NCBI GenBank assembly: GCA_001599595.1
Contig: BCHH01000002.1
Location: forward strand, 3,775,546 to 3,839,545
DNA: 64,000 nt
Source: Beverwykella pulmonaria
Lineage: Eukaryota; Ascomycota; Dothideomycetes; Pleosporales; Melanommataceae
Reading direction: 5' to 3'
This document shows positions 5,277-64,000 of the stretch, in pieces (within the stretch, counting starts at the first letter, position 1; each line of letters opens with the position of its first letter). The notes beneath the pieces were generated by a model. The model searched no databases, had not been told where the DNA came from, and saw only the letters and a program-made list of their open reading frames with translations. The position numbers and the translations under genes are program-made.

Positions 5277-8200
5277 ATGGCGTACCAACAGCAGTACGAT
5301 AATTACCAGCAACCGCGCCTTCAGCAAGGACAGCAACAATATTACAACCAAGTAGCCCCGCCGCAGGGACGGCAGCCAGCGGGCTACAACCAGCAATACA
5401 GCAACGAGCAGTACGATGACTATGGATACGACCAGGGACAGTACGAGCAATGGGACGACGGGTACTACGACCAGCAACAGGGAGGAGGAGCTGGCCAGCA
5501 GCAGTATCAGCAGCAGCATCAGCAGCAGCGTCAACAGACTGGATACGCCGACATGAATGGGCAGATGAGACAGCCGTCGCAGAGTCGCAGGGCGCCCCCG
5601 CAACAACAATACGCGCAAGATCAGATGTACGACGAGCAGGTTTATCAACAGCCACAAGGTCGAGATCCGCGAGCCAGGCCGATGGGACCGAACGGAGGAC
5701 CTCCACAAGGCGGGATGCAGCGCGGCGATTCGCGAGGTCGCGGCGATGGACGAATGCCACAACCCCAGCAGGGACAGCCGGGACTGAGGCCAACGGGTAT
5801 GGCCTCATGGAGAACTCAGCTGGCGCACAAATTACAGCACTAACTTTGCACAGGGAGAGAACGCGCTTTTATGAACCCGATTTCCCCTACTACTCTTCCT
5901 CAAGACAACCCATTCCCCTCGTTCCCCGGACAGAATGCCAAACCTCGGGCGAAGGGCGATTCACTAGACGAAGCTATGGCTATAATGAGTATTGGGCATG
6001 AGAATGATCCCCAGGGACCGCCTCAAGGACTACCGCAGAAAAGGCCGCAAGGACCGCAAGGGGCACCACAAGGCAGAGGCCGCGGAGGCATGCCGCCTCC
6101 ACAGAACCGAGGACCACCGTCGGGGAGTAGAGGTGCATATGCAAATTCAGATATGCAGAGACAAGATTCAGGGCATTTTGAAGGCATTGGACGCGGCCAG
6201 CGTCTTCCACCTAGCCGAGGGCCCCCCGAACAGAGACCACCACCCGCAAATTTCGACGGTCAGCGAGGGCCGCCCCAGCGACCATATAATCCCAATTCTG
6301 TTTCCCCTCCCCCACAACCCTTCGGTCCTGGTACTCAGCGGGCGATGACGATGCCACAGAACATGCCCGGTGCGGCGAACGCAAGAGGTATGAATCTTCA
6401 GCAACAGCCGCAGCAGTGGGCAGAACCAGGCCCCGTAGCTGGCTATCATGGGCCTGAGTCACCTTCCTATATACCCCCTCGACCCACAACCGCTGGCGGA
6501 ACGAAACCAGATAACTATGGCCGCCCGCAACAGTTTGAACAGAGACCTCCCATGCCGTATGCACCCCCTACCCAGCAACAGCAATACCAAGACGATGGCC
6601 GGGTAGATTTAGATAATGTATATGATGATTACTACGGTGGAGAGACTATGGACAGGAAAAGCAAGGCGTCCTCGATAGACATGCCCAACTTCGATGCCAT
6701 TCCTGATACAGGCGGTAGGCATCGCAGAGGCTTCTCGATAGAGAACCATCTATCGCCTACTGAACCTAGTCCGCCTATGCAAGGATTTGCTCCACCGGCT
6801 GGTCCGGAAGCTCAAAATGGTAATTTCCGTCAGCAGTCATTGAAGAGCCGGTCTCAACCAGATTTGCACGGACAGTATGTACGAGGGAACGGGGTCTACG
6901 AAATGGCCGGTGACGCTCCCGCTGTCCCCTCTCTCCCAATGACGAATGGCCAATCCGTCCCCAATGGATTGCCGAATGGTCCTCGGGGTAGAGGAGCGCC
7001 CCCAAGGGGAATGACAATGGATAGCGCACCTATTCGAGGACCTCCCAATCAAGGTTATGGCCCAGGGCAGCCTCAGAATTTTGATCCTAGGTATCGGCAA
7101 AACCCTCCAATGCACAGAGGATACTCGGACGAGACTACATATTCTGAGCCACCGCCAAACACAATGAGAAATGTGCCCCCTATGGTTCCAGGGAACCAAA
7201 TCCATCGTCCGGGAACAGCAGCACCTGCTCCTAGTCGAATGCTAAGCGATCCTGTTCGTCGACCAGGCACCACACAACCACAACCCATGAATCCTGATAC
7301 TCTTCCAGCACACCCAGTTCCGGTAAGACCGGGTCTGATGCAACAGCAACAACAGGATCAAACACCTCCGGCTGCAAGGCCGCCGCCTGTGAGACAGTAC
7401 CACACAGATCCAACCCCCGTTGGATATGAAAACCAGCAAGCGTCTTCTGTAGCACCCCAGAGACCTGTTTCGGTCGTGCATCCAGTCACGCACGATGAAC
7501 TCAATCGCCTTCGAAATACTTGGAAGGCTAACCCCTCGGACAGTGTAACCGGTCTGCTCCTCGCGAAGAAATTAGTGGAGGCCGCAACAGTTCTTGCAGA
7601 TGAAGGTGGAACAGCCGATACAAGGACTCGGAACAAGAATCGGGAAAAGTTCATAATGGAAGCTCACAAGACCGTCAAGAAGCTCGTTTCTGGAGGCTCT
7701 GCCGAAGCTATGTTTTATCTGGCCGATTGCTATGGCCAAGGTCTTCTTGGACTACAAGTTGATACTAAAGAGGCATTTTCTTTGTATCAGTCAGCGGCCA
7801 AAGCAGGCCATGCAGCAAGCGCTTACAGAACAGCCGTATGCTGTGAAATGGGCCATGAAGAAGGCGGCGGAACGAAGAAAGACCCTTTGAAAGCAGTGCA
7901 ATGGTACCGTCGCGCTGCCGCTTTAGGTGATACACCTGCAATGTACAAGGTGGGCATGATTCTTCTGAAGGGTCTTCTTGGGCAACAAAAGAACCTTGGC
8001 GAAGCAATCAACATGCTCAAGCGAGCCGCCGACCGTGCTGACGAGGCCAATCCTCATGCTCTTCACGAGCTCGCACTGTTGTACGAAGCACAGACCGGCA
8101 ACGAAAGGATCATCAGAGACGAGCCATACGCATTTTCGCTTTTCAAGCAGGCCGCCGAACTCGGCTACAAGTTCTCGCAATTCCGAATGGGACAGGCTTA

Positions 8201-8684
8201 CGAGTATGGTCTTCTGGGCTGCCAGATCGACGCAAGGACAAGTCTGGCCTGGTACACGCGAGCGGCGGCGCAAGAGGAGCATCAGAGTGAGCTTGCACTG
8301 TCAGGGTGGTACTTGACCGGCAGTGCAGGCATCCTCGAACAGAGCGATACCGAGGCATACCTTTGGGCGCGCAAGGCCGCGTGTGCGGAGCCTCCTCTCC
8401 CGAAGGCCCTATTTGCAATGGGCTATTTCACAGAAGTGGGCATTGGCTGTCCGAGGAGTTTGGAGGAGGCGAAGAGGTGGTATGGAAGGGCTGCTGGTGA
8501 GTTTCATACATGCCACAACTTGTGCGTTACACGGCATGCTAACTGAGTTTAAGCATATAAATTCCCCAAGGCGCAGGAGCGGCTCGAAGAGTTGAAGAAA
8601 GGTGGTGCAAAGGTGCAGATGAAACGCGAGAGGCTGAGCAGAAGCAACCAAAAAGCGCACGAGGAGAACTGTACGGTCATGTAA
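5277..8684 (+). CDS. Skt5/Chs4-type chitin synthase activator with SEL1 repeats and CAAX box
   Basis: Homologue of Skt5/Chs4, the activator and membrane tether of class IV chitin synthase (Chs3) at septa and the bud neck in yeast. Inferred exons 5277-5796, 5854-8496, 8554-8684; 1,097 residues. The first 650 residues are low-complexity: Gln/Tyr-rich at first (QQQYDNYQQ), then Pro/Gly/Arg-rich, with Ser-rich RKSKASSIDMPNFDAIPDTG. From about residue 715 (ELNRLRNTW) come roughly seven SEL1 repeats such as GSAEAMFYLADCYGQGLLGL and TPAMYKVGMILLKGLLGQQK, ending SLEEAKRWYGRAA. Exon 3 adds YKFPKAQERLEEL and a tail ending CTVM, a CAAX box for farnesylation as in yeast Skt5. The frame changes at 5797 only through a GT-AG intron, so the gene is intact. 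Confidence 0.93.
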
Positions 8685-9636
8685 CGCTTCCTGTCGTGGT
8701 ATAGTTCAATGTCGTTTGGCTGCATCGGTTGGGTCTGGTATTTATGTCCACGGTTCAGCGTTCCTCTGCATTGTTCTGGCGTTTTGCATATCACTTATTG
8801 TAGGGTTTGACACTGGCGTTCAAAATTCTGGTCCTCTATGGCTGTATGAATAGCATAGATTATGTGTGGGTCATGCAGGTGACTGGGAGCTCAGTCCTAT
8901 TTTCGGTTATACTGAGCTGAATGCAAGACATTCCTCTTTCATATGGTGGCCTTTGTGTGAGTTTGTTCATGCTGTTTGTCTGAGCAAGTATATCAGCAGC
9001 CTAGCGATTCGCACGCTACAAAACCTAAAGGTTCATGTTCTCCTACTAGATCTAAGCAAGTTCAAAACTTTGCACCTTAGATGTGAGTCTCCTTTTCCAG
9101 TTCAACGAGGCTGATTGAAGCTGCACCCCTAGTCTCGGAATTCGGTAAACGTACAGCATTATAGGGCATATGTTGAGGATACGAATAAACCCGTTTTGGA
9201 AATTGCAAGCTGAGACATGCGCGCTGACCCGAAAGCCCCAGGCCAAATGTCCAAAACGTGATTCCGATCCCTAAACCGACCATGCTTCTCCTCATAAATA
9301 CCCCTTCGTCCATATGCCAAGAGACCGTTGTCAAAATCCGCAAATCGAGCTTTGTGCATGCATATGCCAAGTGTCATGGGTATACCGTAATTCAGCCCGA
9401 CCATTTTCTTTTTCCGTAAACGCCTCCACCAATTCCAAATCGAAAATCCAATCCAATTTCAAATACAACCAAACCATCATGAGAAAAAACAGAGAGAGAG
9501 TGTGTGTACAGATCAAAAAGAAAACTGTCCATCACTAGTTGACCAACGGAGCGCAGCCCAAGTATTCAGCAAGCATATGTATGTACTGTTCCGAAGCTGA
9601 TGGAGCGAACTGTTGGGATCTACCTAGCAGCTGAGC
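8685..9636. other. Intergenic, convergent 3' ends
   Basis: The tails of the Skt5-like gene and the coiled-coil gene converge here. Several short frames exist on both strands. Nothing is recognisable. Confidence 0.5.
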
Positions 9637-12600
9637 TTAGGCAGCAGGGTGGGTTGCCGGAGGTGGGTGTGAAAATACGTTGGGTTTGTGTGGAAGCGGG
9701 TGAGATGGTCCAGTTGGAGATTGAACACTGAAGCGTCGATTTGGGCCCATGTGCTGCTGCGGAGGCGGGGCTTGAGATGTATTAGAGTGTTGTTGTTGGG
9801 TTGCTCCGGTTGTAGTAAGGATGCTGAAGCGCATGCTTGTGTCTATCTGCTGCTGCTTCTGTTGACGGCATTGCTGCTGCAGGTCCATTGGTTGTAGCTG
9901 CCATTGCTGTATCTTGCGTTGTGTCGACGTTGGATTCATGCTTTGAATCCCCCCTGCCTGGGTGATCTGGGTCATGGAGCCAATTCGCCGAGGACCCTGG
10001 TTACCGGGGAACATCGCCATCTGGGGAGAAGCAGCCTGGTTCGGACCATTGAAGACTTGGCCTGAACTGTGCGTGTGGGCTATGTTATTAGACTGCATGG
10101 TCGGCGATGGTTGGGGCGAAATCAGCGGAGGGCCGAAGCGACCACCTTGTACAACTTGAGTGTTTGACTTCATGATTGCGGTCAGCATGGCAACGCTCTT
10201 GTCGTTGCAACGCTTCTCCGCAAATTTCTTCGAGTTCTCAGTGTTGAGGCCAATGTCTTGCTTCAGTTGTTGAAGCTGCTGTTTGGTAGAGCTTTCGGCG
10301 TTGATGATCTTAGTTTCGAGGTCGAATTTCATGTTGTCGAGCTTCTGCGTTATCATCCTGGGGATGTCATTCTTAAGACTCTCGAAGTTGCGGCGGAGAT
10401 TTCGAGTGTCCAACTCAATATCCTCGCGCTTGATCCGCTCCGTGGTGAACTGGTATCGGAGTTCGCCGACCATGGTGTTGACCTCTGCGTCTGAGACGGG
10501 AACGAAGTCCCCAGGCTCCGTGGTTGCGATGTGGCATGAACCGGTCCCAGGTCTCGCACGTTCGCTTTCGTCGACACGATCCTTAAGCACGTTGAGCTGA
10601 GCTTGTATGCCCTGCTTGACAGCATCAAGCTCTGCTATTGCGGACGCTCCCGCAGCCTTGAATACTTCCGCACACCTTGCAGTACCATCTCTATGAAACG
10701 CCTCCGCCATGCTATCGAGGCTTTGCTGCATGTTGAGTTCGACAGCTTTGATCTTGTTTTCAAAGTTGTCCTGTACGGCCTGCTTAACATCGTCGAGGCG
10801 TTTCTCACTGAGAGAGCCAGAACCTTGGGTATTGGTGGAGAGTAATGAAATGGAATTTTCTACTTCAGTCGCTATTCTGGTCTCCAAGGTCTTGTTTGAC
10901 GCAATTAGATCTTTCAAGGATGTTTGAAGGCGTACAGTGTCCGCCTTTATCTCATTCACGGTATCTGTACGAACGAAGCCTTCCAAACGGCTTTGCAGTT
11001 GCTCATCCATGTCAGGAGCTCGAGGTAGGTCTTCCAGTTTTCGCATGCGTGTATCGAAAGTATCAGCTCTGGTAAATTGTCGGTTCAGATCTGTACGAAA
11101 TTCGTTGTAGTGGCGGTCCATGCGCTGTTCAACGCGCACAAGCTTCTTGTATTGTGTATTTGCAGTGTCGCCAGATATCTCTTTTGGAGCCGATTCGAGT
11201 GCGGAAATCCTTGCATCCATGGCAGCTCTCATTTCATCGAACCGGCGATCGAAGTCTTCTTTGTTCTTCTTGACTTGCTCTTGAAAGGAAGACTCAAGTG
11301 CCGAAAGCTTTGCATCTGTACTGGCTGTTAACCCGCTGAAGCGCCGTTCACATTCGCTCTTATTGTCTTTGAACTGCTGCCTAAGTGCTGCGTTGTTGCT
11401 CACTATACCCCGGTAATTCTTATCCAAGACCTGTACAGCCTTTTCTAATTCATCAAGTCGACCCTTGAGTGCTTCCAAGTTGTTCCGTGTGTTGTCAGTG
11501 GCGACGCCGATTTCTTTGACCTTGGAATACTTCGTGGTAAGGTCGACCAATTTATTGGCAGGGCCGTCTAGGGAGGGATTGATTGGATGTTCTCGACTGG
11601 CCTTCTCCAGACCTTCGCTGGCCCAGTTGATTGTGGCGTCTGTGGTCCTCATTGATTTCTCGTGCATCTTCTCGTATTGTGCCTTCAGCTTGTCAAAGTC
11701 CCGAGAAATCGAGGCAAACTTCCCCATCGGTATTTCTGCATTCATACGGTAAACGCTCTTCTGGAGAGATGCACATTGGAATTGGAAATCTTGCAGTTTT
11801 CTGATCGCGTTCTTCACCTTTGTGACATCATCCATGAGGTGATGAACAACGGACTTACGGGCGCTACCTTCAGCGATGAACCGAATGTCGTCACGGAGTG
11901 GATCCAGTGACGTTTTGATGTTGTTGATGACCTTGGTCTCAATATCGATGAGTCGCTTGTTTACTCGAAGCGTCTCGTCTCCAATCCGCTTCTTCAAGTC
12001 TGCTTTCACTAGTGTCTGTACGTCGACCAACCGACTATGATGCGTGTCCAGATGACCAATTTTGAGTAGCTTCTCCTTCAAAGTCTTATCAAGGCCATCG
12101 ACCTTCTCCCGCAGCCGACAGACGTCGTCAAACAGCTCGGTGTATCGGGTCTCTAACTCATCAATCCTCGGTCCATAGCCAGTCGTTTGTCCAATACCAT
12201 CAAACACCCTGTCAATCATGCTGTCGAGCTGCAATTCTTGTTAACACAGAACAGAGGGCAGCAGAGGGTAGACGCACAGATCGACATGCCTGGACCTTCA
12301 AGGCCTGTATATCATCCCGATCTGCGATGGAGGTCCGGGAATGGTGTGATGCCACATCTGTGAAATCCAGCGCCTGCCGCTTAGCAAAGGTAGTGGTAGT
12401 CTCGGAATCGTCACTCTGTTTTCGTTTCTGTCCTTTCATGCCGACCACAGGACCCATTTCCGCCAGCTCTGATGGAAGCGCCATAGGTTCGGAAGGAAAT
12501 ATTGTACCTTGTGGAGTCGTGAAGGGTAGACAAGTAGAGACGTACGAAATTCCCTTGCAGTAAGCTTTCTGGTTCGTCCTTTGCTGCAACGTGACAAACT

Positions 12601-13640: not shown

Positions 13641-13648
13641 CCAACCGT
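13641..13648. repeat. Target site duplication, left copy (CCAACCGT)
   Basis: The 8-mer CCAACCGT directly precedes the element terminus and is repeated exactly right after the other terminus at 22979-22986. This marks a transposition with 8-bp staggered cuts. Confidence 0.9.
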
Positions 13649-13890
13649 TTATCTCATTAATCAGACCCTCGCGGAGAATCCTGACTTCCGGTCTGCCACC
13701 CCTGCAGCACCCTTCTTAGCGCCGCTAGCGCGCCGCTAAGAACTCCTCCAAACTCCTCAGCCAATCACAGGTCTAGAATAAACCCAAGAAACTCCTGCAA
13801 ACTCCTAGGCCAATAAGAGCGCAGGGATGGGACCGGAGCCAGATTCTCCACGAGGGTCTGAGGTAATTTGGTAGTGGCTTGTTAGCAACT
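13649..13890 (+). repeat. Left terminal module of the element (TIR plus foldback)
   Basis: Starts TTATCTCATTAATCAGACC and ends with GGTCTGAGGTAATTTGG followed by GTTAGCAACT. The outer ATTAATCAGACCCTC and inner GAGGGTCTGAGGTAAT segments are inverted relative to each other, so the module can fold back. Inside are two copies, in reverse orientation, of the motif AACTCCTSCAAACTCCT with CCAAT. Confidence 0.85.
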
Positions 13891-14017
13891 CTGATTCTAC
13901 ACTAAAGGGGAAACATACACACTTACACCCTCTATCTCTAACACTAAAACAGCATTTAACCACGCAAAATTAGCACTAAACGATAGCGATTATTTAATAC
14001 TATCTGTTTGATTTGCG

Positions 14018-16883
14018 ATGTCTCTGTCTCCCGCCCTCCTTCACCTCCCTAGCGGCCCCAAACAAGCCTCATCTACTACACTAGCAAGCCCCTTCACAAG
14101 CCCTCCGCCATTATTTTTTGACAACATTAACCTTTCCTCAAGTCCCCTTAGTGTGCTAGAAGATAGTAGTGGTGACTCTGAGTCAAGCGATCCCTTTAGG
14201 GACGTTGCACTGCCTGATGAAGCACTTCTCGCCACCATAGACGAACTAGATGCTAACAAGGACGACACTAAGAGGGACGACACCGCTATCCTGCCTAATA
14301 TATTGCACCCTCCTTCCTAGGACGCGCGCTCCTGTGCGCGCGTTCGCCAGGCGCGCACCTCTAAGGTAAAATTAGACCTTATGGTTAATGCACTGTGACG
14401 TACAAAGTGGACGTTTAAGGAATTCTTAGAGGCGTGGGCTAAGGACAATAATAAGCTGGAGGTGCGCGTTAGTCACAAGAGCTATGGCAGGCAGAAATTG
14501 CGGCGCCAGATTCTGGAAGAAACATTTGAGTTGTTCCGCTCCTGTAGTGTTATATCAGACGTAAACATTACGCGTGCCTGTGCTGGCGAGTTAGATTAGT
14601 TGCGAAAAGAGCCTTTGTTTGGGATGTTTAATGAGCGTGTGGATGCAGAGAGTATTGACTTTAGCGCTGGCATTGAGTCTATACAGCGTGTTGCCCCCAA
14701 ATGGCACGCGCTTCTCTGTTATGTTATAAGCAATCCTTGTGCAGGCTACAGGAGTTACNGGGCNAGGAATGTCNACAGTGCGCTCCACNAGAAGATGTTT
14801 GCGGTTACTAGTATAGTGTGCNATTNAAGGACTAAGATGAGGTCAAACTTTCTNGCGTCTTCTCTTGATCTATACCTTTTAGGTACNAGTACGCACTGTA
14901 AGGTTATAGAGGTGCTTGCTNGATTTNGCTTGTGTTATACATACCACAGCGCAAACAGCCTTATGCGCAAGCTCTCTGCAGAGGCAGAAGTACGTCCTTA
15001 ATTGTAATCTCTACATTCTCTTCTATTAGTATTTGTACGTTGCTAACCTACAGTAGAAACATCTACGCACTCTTGCCTTCCACCCACAAACAAAGAATGT
15101 ATAGGATAATTTAAACGCAAAGGCAGCTGTTCACTACAAGGACGCAGGGCACAAGCAGGGTTGGCTAGATATAACAAACGCGTTAATCTGTATAGACGAG
15201 GAGATGCCAGCGTCTGGATTGGTGCAGTTAATGCATAATCCTACTGTGCCACTTAGCTTGGACGACATAGTATTTAGTGATGGCCTTGTGGGAGGTCAGA
15301 TTGACGTCAACATAACCTATAGTCTCATCTCTAACGCTGTCCGCCAAATCCATCCTGTTGCTGTTAATGCTGTCTTCTCCAGATCTAACAAAGCTAGATA
15401 CCTAGTGTTTCTAACGATAGAGTGCCTTACACCTTAGACAACTAAGTTCTAGCAGTATGCTGCTGTATTTAAGAATAAGGGCACTATTAAGGGGACGTAT
15501 AAGGTGCAGGATGATATTTATCTGTGGCAGCTTGGTCTCTGGGCACCAGATAACCCAACATTGGATAAGCCTGACAACTTTAAGGCGCGCTTATTTCTTG
15601 CACATGGCGACCAACTTACTGCTTATTACATACAAACTACTAAGGCTAAGCAGGTGCGTGCAGCTTGACCATATAACAAGCGGGACTGGCTACTTGGGCT
15701 TCTGGCGTGGTTTCACATACAGATGAATCTCTTGTTTACAATCGTCCGCACCCACTTTAACGCATCTCCGCCGTGCCCTGGCAGCTAACATACTATACTC
15801 CACGACGTTACTATGTGGGGCCGCAGTCAAACCACACGAGATAGTGCAAAGTACCACCTAATAGAGCCTATTGTAGCGCAAGGTTTTACGTCTTGTGTTG
15901 TTGGTCTATTTTACGCCGCAATAAGACGCCAGGGCCTGTTCTGCGCGTTAACTCAGCTCGCTGTCTCTACTAAGTAGTTGGAGGACGTCGCAGAGCTTGT
16001 TTAGTCCCTAACACCTAACCAGTTCCTGGATATTATAGGCAATGTACAACAGGTTGCCTTCACACATTCCGCTTGGGTGTCTAATACACTAGATGTTGAG
16101 TTCTGTACTATGTGCAGGTATCTCTAGGAAGTTAAGATCTTCTTAACAGTGCGTCATGCTGTTAAGTTTGGTGACATTGGTTTACTGCAACGTCTTGTAG
16201 ATCCACTTATTGTGCTGTTCTTTAGTGCAGGACAGCATAATTATGGGCGTGAGATGTTATTTTATAGGTGGAATCTAACAAGTGTAAACACCCCTAAGCT
16301 ACAGAGGAGTATACTTGCAACTAGGCTAGTAAATTAGAAGGGGCTCCTGTCTACCTTTAAGCTAATTGACCTTCACATGGAGCATCTTAATCTTGCGTCT
16401 AAGATTAATATTAAGATAAACAAGAACTCTACCCACGACGCTAAGGAGACATTTAAACACTAGTGTTTGTGCAGCACCTGGCTCTGCTTACTGCGCTCAC
16501 AGTTAGAGGGCTACTTTGGAGAGGACATGTTAGACAAGCACACTTCTAGTATTGCAGTGGCTGACATGTATCTTCTTGCCTGCACACTACTTAATAACGA
16601 CCTCTTAGAGCCTCATAAGTCCGACCAGCTACGCAACTACGCGATGTATAATTTACTCAACATCCAAAAAGAGGGTACTGTTTTGTTAGAGGAGAAGGTT
16701 ACGCAGTTCAACCAACAGCATGTCCGTACCCCTGGCCAAATTCAGTTCTACCCTCTAGCTGCACAAGACAGCTCCAACTTTACTAGTTTTGATAATATCT
16801 AGGACTACGCTGATGCTATATTAGATGAGCTCTATGGTATACTTAACCCTACAGTTTCTATTGAGACTATAGATCTTACCTAA
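14018..16883 (+). pseudogene. DUF6589-type gene of the element, degraded (15 in-frame stops)
   Basis: A two-exon gene, 14018-14989 and 15054-16883, joined by a 64-nt intron with ideal signals (GTACGT donor, TGCTAAC branch, CTACAG acceptor); about 933 codons before the final TAA. The N-terminus is Ser/Pro-rich (MSLSPALLHLPSGPKQ). Family marks, from my knowledge of fungal DUF6589 proteins, are HGDQLTAYYIQ, RDWLLGLLAWFHIQM, SAGQHNYGREMLFYRW and LIDLHMEHLNLASKI. The reading frame has no frameshift, yet 15 premature stops: TAG at 14318, 14597, 15054, 15102, 15435, 15447, 15975, 16002, 16125, 16335, 16461 and 16800, TGA at 14396 and 15666, TAA at 15786. All fit single C-to-T or G-to-A changes of Gln, Trp or Arg codons. 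Several N positions lie at 14759-14938. A transposase role is inference from its position in the element. Confidence 0.8.
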
Positions 16884-16888
16884 TCCTT

Positions 16889-17303
16889 AGCCTCTTATTG
16901 GTCTAGGAGTTTGCAGGAGTTTGTAGCATAGCCAAGTCCTGCGTAGAACAAATGTTGAACCCAAGACTAATAGGCTCTTATTGGCCCAGGAGTTTGCAGG
17001 AGTTTGTAGCATAGCCAAGTCCTGTGCAGAACAAATGTCAAACCTAAGACTAATAGCCTCTTATTAGCCTAGGAGTTTGCAGGAGTTTGTAGCATGGCCA
17101 AGTCCCGCGTAGAACAAATGTTGAACCTGAGACTAATAGCCTCTCACTAGCCCAGGAGTTTGCAGGAGTTTGTAGCATGGCTGAGTCCCGTGCAGAACAA
17201 ATGTTAAACCTAAGACTAATAGCCTCTTATTGGCCTAGGAGTTTGTAGGAGTTTGTAGCATGGCTGAGTCCTGTGCAGAACAAATGTCAAACCTAAGACC
17301 AAT
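16889..17303 (+). repeat. Tandem array, five units of exactly 83 bp
   Basis: Five consecutive 83-bp units, each starting near AGCCTCTTATTGGCC, passing through AGGAGTTTGCAGGAGTTTG, then AGAACAAATGT and ending AAGACTAAT. The array starts six bases after the stop of the DUF6589-type gene. Units differ mainly by transitions. The ATTGG (CCAAT box) and AGGAGTTTGCAGGAGTTT parts match the motif found near both termini and upstream of the minus-strand genes. Confidence 0.95.
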
Positions 17304-17831
17304 AACTCTCCCTTAGCAGTAACTGTAAAAGCTACTGTTAGTGGAAAGGAATTTGCGTACTGCTTTAGCTCTGCCAACTACTAGATAGAGTAGTGACAGG
17401 TTCATAGCCAGCGCCCCGTACAGGCAGCAGGTTCCGTCTTCGCCAGCTATCTGGGCTCAACCAATAGAGCAGCTTATACCAGATCTTACATGGTGCTCGC
17501 CAATAGAGCCGTCTGTAACCATGCGTCTTTGTCAAAAGAAGGTAAAGGGTAGAAACTTTACACAGATCAAGCCACCCTGAACGCCAGACCCTAATAACAA
17601 CAGTTAGAACTTGCTGCGTTGACAGACTCTAAACCACAATACTCTACTCTCCGCTAGCTAGTACGTTAGACAGAAGAGCTGTAGCCCTAACATACACTTA
17701 TGCTCTCCCTATCGCTCAAAGCCACAACTAAGCAAAGAGGAAGGGGTTGTAGCTAAGATGGTGTAACTTCCAAGAGGTGACAAGTCTCAAGGTCGCAAGC
17801 TTCGACGACGTACTAACCGCGAATCAACAAC
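17304..17831. other. Element-internal noncoding spacer
   Basis: Between the tandem array and the 3' end of the minus-strand zinc-finger gene. There is no open frame of note and no further unit of the array. Confidence 0.5.
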
Positions 17832-18640
17832 TCAGCATCTGGGAACCACTCCGGACGAGGGACTAGACGCTGCTGGACGAGGCAGGAGAACCGCAGGAGA
17901 TGAGCGAGGCGGCGCGGGTACTCCTTGTGACTTGCGTGTGGAGAGGGAGCACTTGACAGTGTCCATCCGACAACGCGCGCAGATAGAGCCCGGGTTCTTC
18001 ACCTGCTTTGCTCCGTCACTGCTGTATATCCAACACTCGTACCCGCTGGAACCGTTTCCAGCCTGACAGTGGCTGCAACGCTGATTATTACTCAGCTTCA
18101 CCCCAAGGTCNGTCTCCATGATGCGACNAATATGGTCAAACACCTTCTTCCTATTAGGCTTNGCGGCATGGTACTCCNATTCAGACNGATACNACCACAC
18201 GTTGGAGTGCTNGTGTACGTAGTGGTCACTNGACTTTTTGCCCTGAGGGTCCCAAGTCCAAGCCACGCGATCTTCNGGACNATGTGCAACCTNAGCTCTN
18301 GCAAAGACTGCCNNCNAAGGGTTGCCCACNACAGCAGGCGGAGACGGCAGGGTGGTAGCGTCCTTGCTGTATAAAGGTTAGCATTTGTAGATGTAAGGGA
18401 GAGAGCAACACTTGCTAATTGTCGTTGAAAGACGGGCCATCTATCTCTTTGTTACTAACGCTACCACTGCAACCCAAGTCTACAGATAGTTCTTGGGGGA
18501 ACGCATCTAAGCTGGGAACGCGCACAAGCAGCTCCCCAAATGCCTTATTATTAGATAAGTCAACTTCAAAGGTCGCGCGAGGTGTCTCTCAACAACCACG
18601 CTCAACCTTCTTGGCTGGCCTCTGTCTAATGACTTGAAAC
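17832..18640 (-). pseudogene. Cysteine-rich zinc-finger gene of the element (DUF3716-like), degraded
   Basis: Minus-strand gene inside the element. The 3' exon ends at 17832. It reads EDRVAWTWDPQGKK, then a Cys cluster (CSHCQAGNGSSGYEC ... ICARCRMDTVKC) resembling the CxxC-x(n)-C ... CxxC layout of fungal DUF3716-type fingers, and a Pro/Ser-rich end. Upstream, across a likely intron with CTAAC and TATACAG signals near 18370-18412, a frame shows FEVDLSNNKAFGELLVRVPS and FPQELSVDLGC. In-frame TGA and TAG codons occur at about 18587 and 18419. Many single N bases (18111-18330) obscure codons. The 5' end is not resolved. DNA binding for the element is inference; family naming is tentative. Confidence 0.5.
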
Positions 18641-18930
18641 CTATCCCTCCGCGCACCATATTAGCGCACCTAAACCTTTACAGGCGGGCACGGCTGAGTC
18701 ACACCCCCATGCTGTAAGGCATGGAATTGGATAGTACGGGCAGAAGCAAGGATCTCGTCCTCTGTCTAACAGACGTTAGATCAGTACTAGAGAGCAAAGA
18801 TTGCAGGTAGAGTATTTAAAGGCATCTTTGTAGTATTGTGGTGTTTCTATGCAGAGCAGACAAGCAGGGAGTTCACTATTATATATGGCTATTACGCGGA
18901 GCGCTAGTGTAGACGCTGAGTTGTGGTGAT

Positions 18931-19167
18931 AGTAATAGTAATGTAGGTTCCCTTCATTTGGACTCGCGCTAACTACTTCTAGAGCCTCCCAGAAACTCCT
19001 GCAAACTCCTAGGCCAATAAGAGGCCAGGGATTTAGCATATATAGCAATGCACGAAGACAGAAGGATGGTAGTGATGGTAATAGTGATAGTTCCTTTCAT
19101 CTTGGACACGCGCTAACTACTCCTAGAACCTCCTAGAAACTCCTGCAAACTCCTAGGCCAATAGGAG
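18931..19167 (-). repeat. Direct duplication of a ~93-bp block carrying the CCAAT motif
   Basis: Two diverged copies, about 18931-19023 and 19075-19167 (offset 144), sharing ACGCGCTAACTACTYCTAGA and then AGAAACTCCTGCAAACTCCT followed by AGGCCAATARGAG. They lie upstream of the zinc-finger gene and just past the end of the helicase gene, so they may be promoter modules. Confidence 0.8.
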
Positions 19168-19241
19168 GCTATAGATTATACCNAAGACAATATCTTGCAT
19201 ACGGCATAACGCAAGGAGATGCAATTGTACGGTATAGTTTG

Positions 19242-22118
19242 CTATATCTTAAAGTATCCACGCGCTTTTTCAGTTGGCTTCTGTTCCCAACCTGTACGTG
19301 TAGTAGCAGCAAACAACAGTGGTCTTGTTACGTTTGCGTCTAGCTGCGCTAAAGGCACCCAAGATAGCGTTGCAGGTGGTGTACTAGCAATCTCTCTAGT
19401 AAACCGACGGCGTTTACTCAACCTCACAGGCGTAGCCGTGCTTGCTAGTATCAACATGGACGGTGTAACTAGCAATGCTGTTGGACTGTCGACGTCGCGC
19501 TCAGGAGTAGAGATCACACGGTCTACGATAGTGTCAGGCGAAGCAGCTACAGCAGCCGCGGTTGACATTATTGTACTGGCCAGATTGGCAAACCTCCTTT
19601 TAGCAACCTCCCTGGCCAAGTGGTTGTCTTGATTCTTAATTACAGTTGCGCGGTCTGCCCCCAGCGCAGTTATGGGCCCGTCTAACAAATGCGCCACCAG
19701 ACGCTCCTGTCTACTCGCACCTATAGCGAGTTTATATGCATCATGTTTAGAGCGAGCAGCCACAAGTATATCTGGCATTGCGGACACCAACGCGCTGCCA
19801 TAAGACTCAATCCGCGACCACTCTAAGAGCTGCGGTGCTAGCTCTAGCTATTGTTCCATTAACAGCACAGTATCACTAACTATCTTAGATCCACATGCGG
19901 CGCTTAGAGCATATTGTAGCTTAGTACTTATAAAGGCAGCAGCTGGCACTAGATATCTCCAAAATGTACTTGAACACAGCAACGCCGCCTGGGTAGTGGC
20001 CCACTCCTCAATGTGCACAAAGGCAAAGTACAGCAGCGTACCCTTGCGCGGACGGGATGGTGGTTTGATGGCTGGCGGCAGATCCAACGGCAACGGCAAG
20101 AGTGATGGATTACAGCGAGAGCAACATTCATCTCTAGGAACAGACATTTGTTCACCAGGCGGCAGTTTGTACTCTCCCAGGCAGCGTAAGAACTCCTCCT
20201 GATGGCACACCCCATTCACCATCCTAAACCACACCGCGTCTACCGACTCTTGGGCTGATTGATCTGACTTAGTCCAGGGTTTGCGGCCTTGTAAGTCTCT
20301 GCGAGTGCGCACACATGCGTTGGCATCAGAGGCAACACTCTTAGCCTCGCTCCCATCTACTATTAGAGTTTGACTACCCAAAGGCTCCTAAGTGGATGGC
20401 TCCGCAGCAGTGTCGCCTGGCGTCATGTCACATACTATAGAGGCAGGCGTGTGACTCTCCGCCAACCAACTCTTGTTAAGACGCCGCAATTGATTAGGCA
20501 GCTGATTTTTCATACGCCGCGCTGGATGGGAAAGTGGTGAGGCCGTGGTTGGCAGTGTAGCTACCTGAACCTCAACAGCTAAGTAGCCTTTAAAGTCAAA
20601 CATCCAATACAGGAGAAAGATGTAGGCGGAGCTTCTAGCACTAGCTAATCTACCACCACGACCTAGGCGCTGCCACATGTCTGCGATGCTTATAGTGATT
20701 GGGAAGCGCCAGCACACAACGCGCTGGATGTTAGGAATATTAATGCCCATGCCAAGAGACGTGGTTGCAAACATGACGCGGATCATAGATAATAGGAGCT
20801 TGAATTCAGCGTAGCGCTGTTGTTGATTGAAGTCCAATACATGCGAGGTAAAGACCTCCACAACATTAAGCACGCAGCGCGCGCCATCCAAAGGATCCAA
20901 CGTATACCAACTATGAGCTGGGAGACCTGCTGTCTTAGCAACCAATGCGCGACAACACCAATCTGCGGCAGTCTGGAGGCTCATCCAACTGTTAATGAAG
21001 ACGACAGTCTTAGGCACACCCTCTAGAGTTGCAGACTGGACACCACTGTCTACATCTAACATCGCGCCATTAATAAGGAAGTGCAATGGATCCTAGTCTA
21101 ACATCTTCCCCTTTGGGATGGGGATGACTGCAATTAATACATCTGGGCAATTAATTGATGTCTGGATGACCTCTGTCTTGTACATACTATACCTAAGTGG
21201 CCTAAATCTAGTGGACTTGAGCACCCTTAACTTAGTCTCTTTGTTAACTGTAGCCAAGCAGCCAAACTAGACAATGTCCCAGCGCAATATTGTATGCAGT
21301 TCACCAAGGAGTGTAAACGCAGGCTGGAAGTCCTTCCACTGTTGGACTAGATAACACTCATTAATAGCTACTAGTCCAATCCGCGATTGTAGCTTAGGGC
21401 TCTTTAATGCGGCACAGAAGGACCTACTTAACGCCTGCTCAGGCCCAAGCAGAACATAAGTGTACTTGCCAGCAGCAATACTACCCAACAGGGCCTTTGT
21501 TTTAGTGCGAGTCTTTGCATTTAGGAGACAAGGATTAGTACCTAGTATACTGCGGATGTCGCAAAGCTGTTTGTCGCCTAGCTTGTTAAGTAGGATTAAC
21601 TGCAACGTAATCTTTTGAGTTAACACAGTAAAGGCATGAAAGATAATACTCTTCCCAAACCCAGTCCGTGCAATTAAGAACGTATCACTACATCCAAATA
21701 TAAGCTGCTAGAGCGTTTGAACCTGCTCTAGGCAGGGTCTGCAGGCAGGGGAACCATCAGCCATGCCACATGCTAGTATCCGCGTTAGACACACCGCAAT
21801 AACCTCCTCTTAAAAGTCCACATATTTAAACGCCCTGGCCCGCTCAACAACCATTAGAAGATCCTCTATTTTTATATGTGGAACACTACAAACCCACTCG
21901 CTCAATGTCTAATCTATAAAGAGACGCTCCTCTAGCCTAGGTACACGTGGATTTTGGTGGCGCCAGTGCTAGATAGTACGCTTATCACCTCTACTTGTCT
22001 TCCCACTTTTCCTCCTTGTCAGCGTCACAGTTGTTGTATTCCACGCCGCTTGCGCGGGCGCCTGCCGTGCGCCATGCTGCGTCAACCTGCCGCCTTGTCT
22101 ACCCTTCCAAGGAGCTAT
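19242..22118 (-). pseudogene. RecQ-like superfamily 2 helicase gene of the element, degraded (8 in-frame stops)
   Basis: A single minus-strand frame of 959 codons (22118-19242) with no frameshift. Helicase motifs in order: Walker A ARTGFGKSIIF near 21690-21660; motif II as INECYLVQQW where RecQ proteins have DECH; FINSWMSLQTAADW; motif V MFATTSLGMGINIPNIQRVV; motif VI MWQRLGRGGR. A zinc-ligand-like DECCSRC and an Ala-rich C-terminal part follow. Eight premature stops: seven TAG and one TAA. The DECH-to-NECY change is also two transitions (GAC-to-AAC, CAC-to-TAC), and the expected start is ATA at 22118-22116 (ATG-to-ATA). This pattern fits RIP-like decay of a once-functional helicase. RecQ-like genes are known in fungal subtelomeric repeats (TLH type); here the gene lies inside a bounded transposon. 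Confidence 0.85.
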
Positions 22119-22768
22119 GATTGGCCCAGGAGTTTCTAGGAGTTTCTAGGGCTTATATCTGTGGCCTCTAATTGGCCTAGGAGTTTGTAGGAGTTTTGTA
22201 GTGCAGGTCTAGCTAATAACAAAGTTGAAGAGGGCAGACACAGTTCTGTAAGATAGGAATCTGGTGACGCAATTTTAACCCAACAACACAAGCAGGGAAT
22301 AACACTGGACAGTACGGCGCAATATCCAACTCAGCAAGTGCGATAGGGGTTAGATGGAGGCTGTGCGACAACGTAGTGCGTGGTTGTCGCGTGGTCTGGA
22401 TATGCAGGCGATGGACTAAGGATGTGCGATCTAGCAGCGACAGGTGTAAATGTAACAGAGTAAGCTTAGGAGGCGCTTTAGGACAGGCGTATAACCTAGC
22501 GGAGCAGGTTACAGTGTATTATCTTGGTGTGGGTGGGGTGTATTAAGTCACTGTTAGTCGTGATTCCACAAAACGTGACTTGCGAAAACAAGTCACTACA
22601 CGGCGCCGTGTATCTCTATGTTATACAGACGTTAGTTAGGCATTAAAATGACATCAATCAACGCAGAATTACCTGTTCTATTTTTTGCATCGCGCCTTTA
22701 AATGACCAAGGGCGCAGGCAAACTCATAGGTGGGCTCAAAGTCAAATATTGCAATTGACAAATCTAAG
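22119..22768. other. Element-internal 5' region of the helicase gene with CCAAT motifs
   Basis: Two copies of the subterminal motif (22118-22149, GATTGGCCCAGGAGTTTCTA; 22164-22196, AATTGGCCTAGGAGTTTGTA) sit directly upstream of the helicase start, where a promoter is expected. The rest, to 22768, has no coding signal. Confidence 0.6.
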
Positions 22769-22978
22769 TTGCTAACAAACGACTACCAAATTACCTCAGA
22801 CGCTCCGCAGAGAATTTTCCATTGATTACATAATCGGCCTCTGATTGGCCCTGGAGTTCCCTGGAGTTTCTTAGGTCTCTGATTGGCCTAGGAGTTCCCA
22901 GAAGTTCAAGGCGAGCCTTAGCGAGCCTTAGCGCCGCGCTAGGAAAATCCTCTGTGGAGCGTCTGATTAATGAGATAA
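22769..22978 (-). repeat. Right terminal module of the element (TIR plus foldback)
   Basis: Mirror image of the left module: GTTGCTAACAAACGACTACC, then ATTACCTCAGACGCTCCGCAG ending at the outer GAGCGTCTGATTAATGAGATAA. Inner AGAATTTTCC and outer GGAAAATCCTCT are complementary, so about 28 bp on each side can pair. Two copies of the CCAAT motif (22839-22869, 22876-22907) lie between. Confidence 0.85.
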
Positions 22979-22986
22979 CCAACCGT
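22979..22986. repeat. Target site duplication, right copy (CCAACCGT)
   Basis: Exact repeat of 13641-13648, immediately outside the right terminus. Confidence 0.9.
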
Positions 22987-63635: not shown

Positions 63636-64000
63636 TTATCTCATTAATCAGACGCTCTACAAAGGAATTTTTACAATTACTAATGCAACGAAGAATACGC
63701 CAAGATAACGTCGCTAGCCAATCAGAGTCTTGCGCACAGACCACTTGAAAAAATCCTGTGCAGAGCGTCTGAGGTAATTTGGTAGTCGTTTGTTAGCAAC
63801 TCAGATTTGTCAATCATGAAATTTTGCTTCCTCTTGCTCTCACAGCTCACCCATAGCCTTAGGACAGGTTTTGTCCGATGGAACAGATAGCTAAACATTT
63901 GTTCTATGTACTGTTGACATTTTTACGCAATGCAGAGGCCTTAATATATGCGAGATACAGCGCCGCGTAGGGTGACTTAATTTCACAAGTCTTGTTTTAC
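63636..64000 (+). mobile_element. Terminus of a second copy of the same transposon family (runs off the window)
   Basis: TTATCTCATTAATCAGAC begins at 63636, identical to the ends of the 9.3-kb element. The module closes with GAGCGTCTGAGGTAATTT at 63763-63780 and continues GGTAGTCGTTTGTTAGCAAC to 63800, then CAGATTTGTCAAT as at the right end of the first element. It is 165 bp rather than 210-242 bp and contains one GCCAATCAGAG motif. The preceding 8-mer CACTGCTA (63628-63635) would be its target duplication if the copy is complete. No gene is visible in the 200 bp beyond. Confidence 0.85.

Follow-up and report, generated by a model that had tools for sequence, protein, structure and literature searches.

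The 64,000-nucleotide stretch analysed here (hereafter the window) comes from the fungus Beverwykella pulmonaria (assembly GCA_001599595.1, contig BCHH01000002.1, positions 3,775,546 to 3,839,545, forward strand) and contains a 9,330-bp element at positions 13649-22978 that is bounded by inverted termini and an 8-bp target-site duplication. Within it lie a DUF6589 gene and a RecQ-type helicase gene on opposite strands. A first-pass annotation, made from the letters alone, had described a mobile element with terminal inverted repeats and three genes. The element is real, was once mobile and has further copies; both large genes stand as called, although they are broken by stop codons rather than intact, whereas the third, a zinc-finger gene, fared poorly.

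Termini, copies and mutational damage

The ends of the element, and the part of a shorter relative that reaches into the window, are as follows.

13641..13648, no strand: target-site duplication CCAACCGT, left copy, perfect over 8 bp
13649..13666, plus strand: left terminal inverted repeat, perfect over 18 bp, 22 bp with one mismatch
13839..13866, minus strand: left-terminus copy that faces inward (TTACCTCAGACCCTCGTGGAGAATC...) and lacks the ATTAATC stretch, 190 bp inside; the block is also in the 883-bp copies
22791..22820, plus strand: inward-facing copy of the right terminus, from a match between the element's two ends; also in the 883-bp copies
22961..22978, minus strand: right terminal inverted repeat, perfect over 18 bp
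22979..22986, no strand: target-site duplication CCAACCGT, right copy, perfect over 8 bp
63636..64000, plus strand: first part of a non-autonomous 883-bp copy that runs past the end of the window; the whole copy is G000:C2:3839181-3840063

The terminus TTATCTCATTAATCAGAC reads on the plus strand at the left end and on the minus strand at the right end with 0 mismatches over 18 bp, and CCAACCGT flanks the element on both sides, confirming the inverted termini and perfect 8-bp duplication that had been noted at the outset. Terminus and family searches covered the source genome (45.6 Mb in 31 contigs; G000, with C for the contig number). A chance origin of the ends is ruled out by the number of matches: three in the window with up to 3 mismatches, where shuffling predicts 0.04, and 27 genome-wide with up to 2 mismatches, against 0 for a reversed-pattern control. 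Beyond their common 18 bases the two ends differ, the left continuing into CCTC and the right into GCTC, and this difference is kept in the 883-bp copies. Slightly shortened terminus copies face inward about 160-190 bp inside both ends, with a conserved block, TTTGGTAGTnGnTTGTTAGCAACT, inward of each; the 883-bp copies carry the same block, closely or exactly. Judging by its sequence, the left terminus could form a fold-back with its inward-facing copy.

From the 27 matches, seven inverted pairs can be formed (two of 9,330 bp, four of 883 bp and one degenerate pair of 683 bp); the other 13 matches remained single and stand outside the duplication count. A perfect 8-bp duplication accompanies six of the seven pairs (CCAACCGT, GAGGAACG, CACTGCTA, CCCATTAT, TGTGAATG and AGCGAGGA), and at the seventh, the 683-bp pair with degenerate ends on contig C8, the duplication agrees at 6 of 8 positions and differs by a transition at each of the other two. 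The terminus search that the first-pass annotation had suggested as a check has thus yielded further copies, with an 8-bp duplication in all six that are clean and complete. We also considered a duplication of 9 bp throughout and rejected it: 9 bp can be read in two ways, each of which fails in 4/6 complete copies, and three copies fail both. The second full copy is likewise 9,330 bp long, gives a gap-free alignment with the window copy and is flanked by a separate 8-bp duplication. The 883-bp copies, each also with a duplication of its own, carry no genes; those outside the window are C4:2374954-2375836, C15:253283-254165 and C16:429668-430550. Three of the four short copies differ at just 2-3 of 883 sites.

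Both full copies are heavily damaged. Compared with each other, they show 409 clean differences, 100% of which are transitions (267 in CpA/TpG context, 139 in CpG and 3 in other contexts). The TpA/ApT ratio is 1.37 and 1.18 in the two copies, compared with 0.67-0.70 in the window flanks, and (CpA+TpG)/(ApC+GpT) is 1.08 and 1.14, compared with 1.25-1.27. Such a pattern of transitions and dinucleotides is the established signature of repeat-induced point mutation (RIP) in fungal repeats, and, as read from base composition and context, the damage in the full copies is of this kind. The joined DUF6589 frame holds 16 stops in the window copy and 14 in the second copy, 9 of them common to both and the natural final stop counted; the helicase frame holds 9 and 6, with 3 in common and the last one probably natural. 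The near-identity of three of the short copies suggests recent movement of the family, even though the long copies are RIP-broken. That both full copies are broken while the short ones are so alike implies, in turn, that the intact source has been lost, is missing from the assembly or lived in another strain. The element also contains 27 Ns, compared with 0 elsewhere in the window. Of these, 26 fall into two clusters, 14759-14927 and 18111-18330, and the remaining one is at 19183; the clusters may reflect base calls in which the two long copies could not be told apart.

No empty site was found for the second full copy: its joined flanks were used as a query, and among the best 40 of 709 candidates scored no match spans the junction. 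The query matched its own two halves and, through a repeat that lies in the left flank, 39 further listed sequences; three weaker matches were partial. This left flank (G000:C2:4762714-4763013) includes part of a high-copy repeat with at least 39 other matches at 93-99% identity. Separately, contig C7 (1623100-1633000, positions 8581-9832 thereof) holds a relic of a related subfamily that has lost internal sequence, with 75% identity to the element in its left part and 80% in its right part.

The DUF6589 gene and the helicase gene

The two large genes and the residues discussed below occupy these positions.

14018..14989, plus strand: exon 1 of the DUF6589 gene, stop-broken; 36% identity over 809 aligned columns to the intact relative P0053, in an alignment that crosses the intron
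14990..15053, plus strand: inferred 64-bp intron (GTACGT...GCTAAC...ACAG), from the sequence, the frame change between open reading frames and the alignment to the relative
15054..16883, plus strand: exon 2 of the DUF6589 gene with the catalytic region, stop-broken; Pfam PF20231; natural stop TAA at 16881-16883
15105..15107, plus strand: predicted catalytic Asp 1, D342 of the joined frame (D377 of P0053), kept in 31/31 proteins that reach the site, of 72
15609..15611, plus strand: predicted catalytic Asp 2, D510 (D560 of P0053), GDQLT motif, kept in 72/72
15714..15716, plus strand: invariant His, H545 (H595 of P0053), WFH motif, kept in 72/72; hAT and P have C/DxxH there
16380..16382, plus strand: predicted catalytic Glu, E767 (E821 of P0053), EHLN motif, kept in 72/72
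19242..22136, minus strand: RecQ-type helicase gene, stop-broken, 5' start uncertain; from profile matches and alignment to relatives

The DUF6589 call is borne out by Pfam PF20231, which matches with E 3.0e-48 at the window locus and 1.8e-50 in the second full copy; the family search of the genome found no locus outside the full copies. Pfam describes DUF6589 as a fungal family of unknown function. A search of a literature library for 'DUF6589' and 'PF20231' returned no paper on the family, the four 'PF20231' matches concerning unrelated subjects, judging by their listing. Each protein search scored its best 7,992-7,996 candidates, and the counts of relatives, at least 72 for DUF6589 and at least 13 for the helicase, are therefore lower bounds. 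The named DUF6589 relatives belong to Ascomycota and Basidiomycota.

Sequence comparison did not identify DUF6589 as a known transposase: 23 Pfam models were matched by any of the 72 proteins and none is a known transposase model, in a scan at E <=10 in which HMMER filters discard most weak matches, so that very distant domains could escape. A profile search of the PDB gave as its sole match an unrelated nanobody (E 0.21). The predicted structure is more informative. In P0053 numbering, strands are predicted at 372-387, 391-406, 555-559 and 587-591, and D377, D560 and E821 fall at the places expected of a DDE fold: an RNase-H-like core with an Asp on strand 1, an Asp after strand 4 and a Glu on a later helix. 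The top ranks of a structure comparison are all DDE enzymes, with Hermes (hAT) and the P element as the best matches, on lists from which a family's absence does not by itself exclude it. We therefore propose a predicted RNase-H-like DDE fold for DUF6589, in which, as in hAT and P, a large helical insertion precedes the catalytic Glu, and a predicted catalytic triad of D342, D510 and E767. Given this predicted fold and the invariant acidic residues, DUF6589 is very probably the DDE transposase of the element, as the first-pass annotation had guessed. In a viral collection, a pattern search gave no DUF6589 relative (36 pattern matches, 0 confirmed), and none of the viral predicted structures was significantly similar to the fold.

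The second large gene, present in both full copies as a separate gene on the strand opposite to DUF6589, contains DEAD and Helicase_C domains. A profile built from 11 relatives matches the solved structures of WRN, RecQ, RECQ5, RECQ1 and BLM (best E 2.4e-26), in agreement with the original RecQ-like call. Motif II reads N-E-C-Y in the window copy and D-E-C-H in the relatives. The only two near-full-length helicase loci in the genome are both inside the full elements; eight further RecQ-like matches are partial. DUF6589 and helicase relatives also occur on contigs of exactly the same size and source in two cases, 7050 (P0004/P0076) and 12598 (P0020/P0077), where 0.06-0.10 are expected, in a comparison that took in 67 of the 72 DUF6589 relatives (five from Basidiomycota omitted) and 11 of the 13 helicase matches (the two weakest, named RecQ, omitted). 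These pairs suggest, without proving, a long-standing linkage, and the two genes are probably linked in these two other sequences. The helicase motifs are invariant in 11 relatives, which suggests selection, and the helicase likely aids transposition of the element.

Two further features of the element are these.

16878..17313, no strand: about five 83-bp units in tandem, all carrying the repeated CCAAT-type motif; from self-matches and motif positions
17832..18377, minus strand: possible zinc-finger open reading frame, 181 aa, with paired cysteines; sub-threshold DUF3716, frame open in both full copies

The DUF3716 match of the 181-aa frame is below threshold (E 0.14 in the window, 0.1 in the second full copy), and comparison with the 12 DUF3716 loci of the genome gave no clear relation, the best match (E 0.015) lying in a proline-rich stretch; this frame is thus a possible, weakly supported zinc-finger gene. 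DUF3716 itself forms a small, partly decayed family in the genome; ten of its matches exceed the Pfam cut-off, and three of these contain stops. At <=4 mismatches, the repeated motif ACTCCTnnAAACTCCTnGGCCAAT has 13 occurrences in the element and a single one in the rest of the window; at <=3 mismatches, its 30-base form is found at eight places, all within the element, compared with 0 expected. Five copies make up the 83-bp array, and the two large genes have some of the copies upstream of them; as a guess, the motifs might be protein-binding sites.

Proposed mechanism and rival explanations

We are confident, if short of certain, that the element is a RIP-damaged 9.33-kb transposon with inverted termini and 8-bp duplications that was moved by cut-and-paste through a DUF6589 DDE transposase, the helicase likely helping. 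We propose that the transposase would bind the end sequence in its paired copies, terminal and inward-facing subterminal, excise the element and join it to target DNA cut with an 8-bp stagger. The helicase may unwind the ends or assist gap repair. The 883-bp copies would have been mobilised in trans, recently, by an intact full-length relative not shown in the assembly.

It is conceivable that DUF6589 and the helicase are both captured passengers, with an unrelated transposase that recognises the ends moving the element in trans. Four of the six complete copies are without these genes, and the ends can thus be moved in trans; the predicted DDE fold with its invariant D, D and E, the confinement of DUF6589 to the full copies in the family search of this genome and the lack of any other transposase-like gene in those long-element frames that were scanned nevertheless make this very improbable. 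A narrower possibility retains the DUF6589 transposase and treats the helicase alone as a passenger with no role in transposition, for instance one copied from a host or subtelomeric RecQ-like gene. The opposite strands of the two genes, the short copies' need for the ends alone and the eight partial RecQ-like matches elsewhere are in keeping with it, but the same-size contig pairs and the invariant helicase motifs speak for linkage and selection, and we think it unlikely.

Other alternatives concern the class to which a DUF6589 transposase would belong. The element could be an AcademH transposon, DUF6589 being the Pfam name of the AcademH transposase and 8 bp a variation within the lineage; this would change the name only and is compatible with the mechanism above. 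In PMC10799480, the AcademH helicase is tied to DEAD and Helicase_C, the same two domains as here, and AcademH is reported as low-copy in Basidiomycota, Ascomycota and Mucoromycota, a host range that the phyla of the DUF6589 relatives would fit. Its duplications are nevertheless given as 9 or 10 bp in PMC10045372, not 8 bp, and we regard this assignment as a serious but somewhat doubtful possibility. It is also possible that the element belongs, in a divergent form, to hAT, P or KDZ, groups able to make the 8-bp duplications seen here; Hermes and the P element are the top structural matches, and the invariant His after the second Asp sits, by our own placement, at the position of the C/DxxH His. 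Position -3 of that His is, however, A, S, G or V in 72/72 DUF6589 proteins and C or D in none, and models of hAT, P, KDZ, MULE and other transposases are absent among the 23 Pfam models matched (E <=10, with filters that drop most weak matches). We consider such membership decidedly unlikely.

Tentatively, and with a little less than even confidence, we suggest that DUF6589 proteins are the transposases of an undescribed DDE superfamily that is spread through Ascomycota and Basidiomycota and is sister to hAT and P; its marks would be 8-bp duplications, WFH in place of C/DxxH and a RecQ helicase built into the machinery. Should DUF6589 prove to be a DDE transposase, many fungal proteins listed as 'hypothetical' would be transposon genes, and fungal mobile elements could be annotated with a further class whose ends and duplication length are known. 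The pairing with a helicase, which AcademH and KolobokH show as well, opens to test the question of why such helicases accompany several fungal transposases.

Comparison with known transposon groups

Among DDE transposons, the P element makes 8-bp target duplications and Kolobok elements duplicate TTAA. P differs from the present element in that the 72 DUF6589 proteins have no C/DxxH and no P-type Pfam match. The C/DxxH motif is shared by hAT, P, MuDR, Kolobok and Dada (defined in PMC9587614) and is present in 0/72 DUF6589 proteins. hAT elements make 8-bp target duplications (PMC12730594), and Hermes shares with our element this length and, together with P, the nearest predicted fold; the element here differs in having a helicase gene and no C/DxxH. 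The hAT Pfam domains (dimerisation, BED finger) gave no match in the 72 proteins at E <=10, a threshold that very distant domains could escape. Within KDZ, the fungal Dileera family Zisupton-1_PGr makes 8-bp duplications and Kyakuja 7-bp ones (PMC12730594). Zisupton/Dileera is thus alike in duplication length, and differs in that a helicase is present here; the 72 proteins gave no KDZ Pfam match at E <=10, with filters that drop most weak matches. Of the relation to hAT or KDZ that had been raised at the outset, the 8-bp duplication and, on the side of hAT and P, the predicted fold are shared; the C/DxxH motif of hAT is absent, and the Pfam scan gave no match to a model of either group.

The first-pass annotation knew of no described superfamily that joins the two genes between inverted termini with an 8-bp duplication. 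The pairing of a DDE transposase with a helicase is, however, known from KolobokH (RecQ; PMC9587614) and AcademH (helicase; PMC10045372), with transposases that are other than DUF6589 or were not compared with it and, in AcademH, with a different duplication length. KolobokH combines a RecQ helicase with a DDE transposase in fungi and places the helicase downstream of the transposase domain (PMC9587614), whereas here the helicase is on the opposite strand, the C/DxxH motif is absent and the duplications are not TTAA. AcademH, a helicase-bearing Academ lineage of animals and fungi, has duplications of 9 or 10 bp (PMC10045372), compared with 8 bp in 6/6 clean complete copies here; with our element it shares a transposon-encoded helicase, fungal hosts and low copy number (PMC10799480 and PMC10045372).

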